A DNA stretch of 64,000 nt from an uncultured Gammaproteobacteria bacterium (lineage in GTDB: Bacteria > Pseudomonadota > Gammaproteobacteria > Steroidobacterales > UBA11654). Below are positions 42,913 through 43,133 of this stretch, piece after piece (position 1 is the stretch's first letter; the number at the start of each line of letters is the position of its first letter). Position numbers and translations under genes: made by a program. The stretch spans positions 1 to 64,000 of the forward strand of contig CALMWC010000007.1 of assembly GCA_937801655.1 (NCBI GenBank), written 5' to 3'. Below the pieces are notes generated by a model. It was not told where the DNA came from and ran no database searches. It saw nothing but the letters and a program-made list of their open reading frames with translations.

Positions 42913-42942
42913 TTGACAAGGCAAAGGCTTAAGATGAATAAT
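42913..42942 (+). promoter_or_regulatory. Candidate sigma70 promoter for the ilvC leader
   Basis: TTGACA (42913-42918), 18 nt spacer, AATAAT (42937-42942). It overlaps the first candidate leader start codon, so use of this promoter would imply the ATG at 42949. Confidence 0.45.
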
Positions 42943-43053
42943 TGCAGAATGAAACTTAATTATGAAAAAATATTAATTGATTTAAACTCACAAAGTATTA
43001 TTTTGCTTGGGTTACTACTGCTAGTTTTACCTAGTTATGGGGCGAATTATTAA
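42934..43053 (+). CDS. Branched-chain amino acid attenuator leader peptide (39 aa; not in ORF track)
   Basis: ATG at 42934 with AAAGG 6 nt upstream; MNNCRMKLNYEKILIDLNSQSIILLGLLLLVLPSYGANY; run IILLGLLLLVL; followed by antiterminator/terminator pair before ilvC. Alternative in-frame start at 42949. Confidence 0.75.
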   Translation: MNNCRMKLNYEKILIDLNSQSIILLGLLLLVLPSYGANY

Positions 43054-43107
43054 TATTGCAAAGTTAATAAATAATTTAAGCCCCGTTAACCAGCGGGGTT
43101 TTTTTTT
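43039..43107 (+). promoter_or_regulatory. Attenuator: competing antiterminator and terminator hairpins
   Basis: Antiterminator: GGGGC (43039-43043)/GCCCC (43080-43084) plus AATTAT (43045-43050)/ATAATT (43071-43076). Terminator: GCCCCG-ttaaccag-CGGGGT then T9. They share the CCCC strand and are mutually exclusive. Confidence 0.78.
43078..43107 (+). terminator. Intrinsic terminator (attenuator) upstream of ilvC
   Basis: AAGCCCCGTTAACCAGCGGGGTTTTTTTTT immediately 5' of the ilvC RBS. Confidence 0.85.
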
Positions 43108-43133
43108 ACAAGATTGTTAAAAAGGAGATAGGG

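Follow-up and report, generated by a model that had tools for sequence, protein, structure and literature searches.

It is textbook biology that ilv and leu operons can be controlled by ribosome-mediated attenuation, and the protector (pause) hairpin 1:2 is a feature of attenuators of the E. coli trp type that some other attenuators do not have. Attenuators of branched-chain amino acid (BCAA) operons in proteobacteria have reportedly been catalogued by Vitreschak et al. in 2004 (FEMS Microbiol Lett 234:357), a catalogue said possibly to include ilvC-first operons in Xanthomonadaceae. For the leu leader of S. typhimurium, CUA control codons have been discussed (PMC1183508). Attenuators with leaderless ORFs have been described before: in the C. 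glutamicum ilvBNC attenuator, the start codon of the leader peptide is one nucleotide away from the transcription start (PMC11857589), and in S. meliloti the trpL/rnTrpL RNA opens with its leader ORF (PMC7298713). In the M. tuberculosis ilvB1NC attenuator, the ribosome that has reached the stop codon covers ~26 nt and thereby blocks the antiterminator (PMC13236596).

Here we describe the 221 nt that precede a joint ilvC/leu operon in a 64,000-nt stretch of DNA from an uncultured gammaproteobacterium, hereafter the window. Comparison with related genomes makes it very likely that this leader is a ribosome-mediated, mainly Leu-responsive attenuator of ilvC-leuA-ilvE-leuC-leuD-leuB, with a probably leaderless start at ~42949 and without a conserved protector hairpin. 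The initial annotation had read the region as a branched-chain attenuator that works by ribosome stalling, and this core reading is supported, at the level of sequence, by the conserved operon, the Leu register, the mutually exclusive structures and covariation. The features of the locus are:

42913–42918, forward strand: −35 hexamer TTGACA, the best promoter-like match in the region, invariant in 10/10 family genomes covering it
42937–42942, forward strand: −10 hexamer AATAAT, a promoter-like match after an 18-nt spacer, adjoined by an ATG at 42934
42949–43053, forward strand: leader ORF of 34 codons plus TAA, MKLNYEKILIDLNSQSIILLGLLLLVLPSYGANY, its in-frame ATG at the predicted transcription start
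43012–43029, forward strand: putative control-codon block TTA CTA CTG CTA GTT TTA, with Leu invariant at 43012, 43018 and 43021
43039–43050, forward strand: antiterminator 5' strand GGGGCGAATTAT, inside the last leader codons, its core GGGGC (43039–43043) covarying with 43080–43084
43071–43084, forward strand: antiterminator 3' strand ATAATTTAAGCCCC, whose GCCCC (43080–43084) doubles as the terminator 5' arm
43078–43107, forward strand: intrinsic terminator, with stem-loop 43078–43101 and T tract 43099–43107
43122–43127, forward strand: Shine-Dalgarno AAGGAG of ilvC, read from the sequence
43134–44165, forward strand: ilvC, ketol-acid reductoisomerase, the first regulated gene (NCBIfam equivalog match)
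44209–45747, forward strand: leuA, 2-isopropylmalate synthase (NCBIfam model)
45758–46687, forward strand: ilvE, branched-chain aminotransferase (NCBIfam model)
46691–48106, forward strand: leuC (NCBIfam model)
48108–48680, forward strand: leuD (NCBIfam model)
48677–49723, forward strand: leuB (NCBIfam model)

The NCBIfam models bear out the gene order ilvC-leuA-ilvE-leuC-leuD-leuB, not an enteric one, that had been proposed for the regulated unit, and the order ilvC-leuA-ilvE-leuCDB is the same throughout the family, including a member of another genus (G010). The gene upstream (DUF3450) is divergent from the ilvC operon, and the terminator at 43078–43107 therefore ends no other known transcript. 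ilvB and ilvD are located elsewhere, outside the ilvC-leuA operon; inspection by eye revealed no attenuator upstream of ilvB in five genomes or of ilvD in four. Upstream of ilvB in G000 (L132, and likewise in L125, L130, L131 and L128), an IlvN-like ORF (MRHTIAILLQNESGALS...) lies on the opposite strand and points away from ilvB; this apparently divergent arrangement of the acetolactate synthase genes differs from the usual ilvBN operon. Four contigs of the MAG G009 (C3, C11, C13 and C15) carry numerous ilvB-like fragments, some of them interrupted by internal stops, which look like frameshifted assembly or contamination. Between leuB and hisG, at window 49816–50127, lies a TrpR-related YerC/YecD gene whose position is conserved across the genus and which is possibly a local regulator.

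Both pairing strands named in the initial annotation, GGGGCGAATTAT at 43039–43050 and ATAATTTAAGCCCC at 43071–43084, are present in the sequence, as is the terminator GCCCCG-TTAACCAG-CGGGGT at 43080–43099, followed by T to 43107, before ilvC. A terminator search found one terminator here against 0.2 expected in shuffles, and it is the sole terminator in the 64-kb window that is preceded by such a leader. Its energy ranges from −14 to −16.5 kcal/mol across all 11 family genomes; that of the antiterminator (−11 to −16 kcal/mol) is near it, and the two structures are mutually exclusive. In the same 11 genomes, the leader stop is closely preceded by Gly-Ala/Val codons that contain GGGG[C/U], and [G/A]CCCC forms the terminator 5' arm. 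GGG makes up 7.8% of the Gly codons in window genes, and it is the codon used at the antiterminator strand in 10/10 leaders. Elsewhere in the window, a perfect 30-nt terminator hairpin (10335–10306, reverse strand) is separated by 86 nt from a downstream 447-codon ORF, which no amino-acid-rich leader ORF precedes.

The antiterminator pairing is kept in 9/9 distinct rows of the family alignment, a level reached by 6/500 shuffles, and slid structures fared worse. One pair covaries, changing from C-G to U-A in G007 and in G003/G002; this is a single pair with roughly two independent events, the remaining pairs being invariant, and the covariation evidence taken alone is modest. These changes were counted on an anchored, concatenated alignment of the strands with identical rows merged; an automatic MAFFT alignment, in which the G run of some rows was displaced by one column, was not used for covariation. 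The pairing claim rests on this A+T-rich family because per-locus shuffle tests in GC-rich relatives from the order were mostly not significant, the complement between strands 2 and 3 reaching p ≤ 0.05 by shuffling in only 9/47 loci overall. Folded as a whole, the 221-nt region has an energy that does not stand out from chance (z = −0.74), and this energy is given no weight as evidence. Thermodynamic folding revealed no conserved 1:2 protector or pause hairpin, the upstream partners of strand 2 being inconsistent between genomes. Thus the layout that had been called classic is not fully so: the peptide, the antiterminator and the terminator stand, but no conserved 1:2 hairpin was found.

Reading the leader itself revealed the codon run ATT ATT TTG CTT GGG TTA CTA CTG CTA GTT TTA as it had been described, while the residue counts needed correction: the 39-codon peptide read from 42934 contains 10 Leu and 4 Ile rather than 11 and 5, and the 34-aa peptide read from the ATG at 42949 contains 10 Leu, 4 Ile and 1 Val. 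Across the family, the peptide varies from 27 to 34 aa and its N-terminal half drifts, which accounts for the weak third-codon-position bias over the whole ORF. Its tail is held in a strict register: Leu stands at −27, −21 and −18 nt from the GGG codon in 10/10 family leaders, a branched-chain codon at −12 (43027) in 9/10, and branched-chain codons at −9, −6 and −3 in 0/10. CTA and CTG together make up 67% of the Leu codons in leader tails, as compared to 21% in window genes; the enteric leu leader likewise prefers CUA as its control codon (PMC1183508). In a model that masks 12 nt from the A site (an assumed footprint), the probability of the antiterminator is ~1 with the ribosome on the control codons and 0 with the ribosome at the stop; in 9/10 genomes the modelled switch point comes directly behind the last branched-chain codon that precedes GGG, and in G006 two codons later. 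Control would thus be exerted mainly through Leu codons, with Ile and Val secondary. Conservation of the peptide and hairpins in related genomes had been put forward as a check on the proposal, and what the relatives show is a Leu register that is kept and a pairing that is kept with one covarying pair. It is this comparative evidence (fixed Leu register, no late branched-chain codons, pairing kept) that makes the attenuator more than a chance resemblance.

We also considered where transcription and translation of the leader might begin. The promoter TTGACA-18 nt-AATAAT (42913–42942) has 11/12 matches. In sigma-70 promoters, a 17–18-nt spacer together with the 6–7 nt usual after the −10 hexamer places the start 35–37 nt from the first base of TTGACA. 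The distance from the first T of TTGACA to the in-frame ATG is 35, 36 or 37 nt in 10/10 family genomes with a contig covering the promoter, and promoter spacing thus predicts a transcription start at or within ~2 nt of the ATG at 42949. Scanning the order for an ATG 10–110 nt downstream of TTGACA, a range that supersedes an earlier, biased scan limited to 33–39 nt, yielded 50 loci with a branched-chain-rich ORF, many of them from close relatives and so not independent. In 47/50 of these loci, an in-frame ATG lies in the 34–39-nt window (observed 35–39), where an even spread would put ~5 of 77 ATGs; the other 3/50 have no ATG at 34–39 nt. A Shine-Dalgarno motif precedes the leader ATG in 0/47 order-wide loci, whereas an SD-like motif precedes ilvC in 63/85. 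Because of this promoter–ATG spacing of 35–39 nt and the lack of a Shine-Dalgarno, the leader ORF is probably leaderless, which is also the simplest reading of the sequences.

The same attenuator might instead possess an ordinary 5' UTR, with transcription starting upstream of 42913 (e.g. from the TATATATATAA tract near 42880) and translation starting at 42934, as the initial annotation had it. An open frame from 42934 to 43053 ending in TAA is indeed there when the sequence is read, this frame is already open at 42913, and G000, G007 and G004 have an in-frame ATG at the equivalent position. In G006, G009, G008, G005 and G002, however, that ATG heads a dead-end ORF of 5–7 codons, so that the conserved in-frame start is 42949 and not 42934; the ATG at 42934 falls within the promoter spacer, next to the −10 hexamer; and the order-wide pairing of TTGACA and a −10 element with an in-frame ATG 35–39 nt downstream, without a Shine-Dalgarno, likewise argues for the later start. 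We consider an ordinary 5' UTR improbable.

Other readings would preserve the ORF or the terminator but not the link between them. The ORF could encode a functional small Leu-rich membrane peptide, the terminator being only partly leaky or part of a small RNA gene; the peptide is hydrophobic and rich in Leu, and leader peptides can act in trans, as S. meliloti peTrpL illustrates (PMC7298713). Yet the N-terminal half of the peptide is not conserved, the total length ranges between 27 and 34 aa, the Leu register and the GGG codon alone are kept, the Ala/Val codon varies in such a way that the RNA pairing stays, and no Pfam family matches the leader peptide, all of which renders a membrane peptide very unlikely. 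It seems more unlikely still that a riboswitch, a T-box or a protein-bound leader governs the terminator while the ORF is fortuitous: such systems do also use terminator/antiterminator pairs, but an Rfam search of the leader at gathering and relaxed thresholds returned no family at its gathering score (Leu_leader, RF00512, scores 15.7 bits in the window against a gathering score of 50), and strong conservation is limited to the promoter–ATG spacing, the Leu register and the G/C strands. We therefore retain the leaderless, mainly Leu-responsive attenuator as the preferred reading.

The element was found in all 11 family genomes. Those close relatives that bear names carry the label SAR86 cluster or uncultured gammaproteobacterium. 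The IlvC of the sister genus G010 (L122:6639-7661) is only ~51% identical to the window IlvC, while a SAR86 MAG whose ilvC is immediately preceded by an IlvN-like gene encodes an IlvC (L031:8001-9029) with 87% identity; the ilvC behind the conserved attenuator has probably been replaced in one lineage. Beyond the family, a CCCCGC...GCGGGG-type terminator immediately precedes ilvC in members of families f2, f4, f6, f7, f11, f15 and f16, usually with leuA next, and a leader with 34–39-nt spacing was found in f1, f2, f4, f7, f11 and f15; the same layout is thus present in five further families of the order, and the terminator alone in two more. At most order-level loci, leuA is the gene after ilvC, either adjacent to it or a short gap away. 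In the first scan (33–39 nt only), the script placed no leader at fourteen loci that have a terminator call, for which diverged promoters, other start codons and real absence are alternatives. The element is absent from other members of f2 and f15, which have a different IlvC type.

A class-wide sample of 30 fetched loci included 29 from other orders. One of these 29 (L210 of G255) has ilvC then ilvB and the same TTGACA-36-ATG layout; most of the remaining other-order loci have ilvB upstream of ilvC, without a terminator. Both L189 (G025) and L210 have an ilvB-type gene after ilvC and, ahead of ilvC, a terminator and a leader rich in branched-chain codons that resemble those described here, which suggests that the element can occur apart from the leuA arrangement.

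In the mechanism that we propose, transcription would start at ~42949, on or beside the A of the leader ATG, and the ribosome would initiate on a leaderless mRNA. When charged Leu-tRNA is ample, the ribosome would reach the stop codon at 43051 and cover GGGGC (43039–43043), leaving GCCCC (43080–43084) free to pair with CGGGG as the terminator, and transcription would end at ~43107. When Leu (or, to a lesser degree, Ile or Val) is scarce, it would stall on 43012–43029, at a distance just sufficient to keep GGGGC uncovered; the exposed GGGGC would then take GCCCC, and polymerase would continue into ilvC. The translating ribosome would itself be the off signal, and it appears to be the sole blocker since no conserved 1:2 protector hairpin was found.

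More speculatively, the ilvC-first operons of the order and of at least one genome elsewhere may share one ancient, obligately leaderless, two-state attenuator with the ribosome as its sole off signal, a generalization that we advance tentatively and with less than even confidence. If it is true, the operon would be turned on when initiation on the leader fails, contrary to what happens in E. coli trp, and branched-chain synthesis would be coupled both to leaderless (70S-type) initiation and to charged Leu-tRNA. The locus and its relatives give a concrete, order-wide gammaproteobacterial case of an attenuator sensor ORF apparently without a 5' UTR, in which leaderless initiation would belong to amino-acid sensing. 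For the window itself, the start codon of an unannotated peptide is corrected and the positions of its Leu codons and pairing strands are supplied, suggesting a control route for the joint ilvC/leu operon in a small-genome, uncultured marine lineage.

How does this locus compare with the systems already described? A leaderless two-hairpin attenuator on ilvC-leuA operons across a gammaproteobacterial order was not found in the open-access literature searched, the catalogue of Vitreschak et al. 2004 lying outside the comparison. The attenuator of M. tuberculosis ilvB1NC resembles the present one in its BCAA control codons and in the logic of masking from the stop codon; it differs in phylum, in operon and in its 166 nt leader, which the cited part of that account does not describe as leaderless (PMC13236596). 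S. meliloti trpL differs in being Trp-specific and alphaproteobacterial and in regulating trpE(G). The C. glutamicum ilvBNC system is likewise a branched-chain attenuator with a transcription start at the leader ORF, which here is predicted from promoter spacing, but it belongs to another phylum and operon, and the anti-antiterminator H1 of its three-hairpin model has no conserved counterpart in this family. Enteric leu (leuABCD; Rfam Leu_leader) and ilv attenuators share the Leu-rich leader peptide, the competition between antiterminator and terminator and the bias towards CTA/CTG Leu codons; by contrast, the operon described here begins with ilvC, its order ilvC-leuA-ilvE-leuC-leuD-leuB matches neither ilvGMEDA nor leuABCD, its start is apparently leaderless and no conserved 1:2 hairpin was found. 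The mechanism is thus probably an ordinary one, used in a leaderless, two-hairpin variant.
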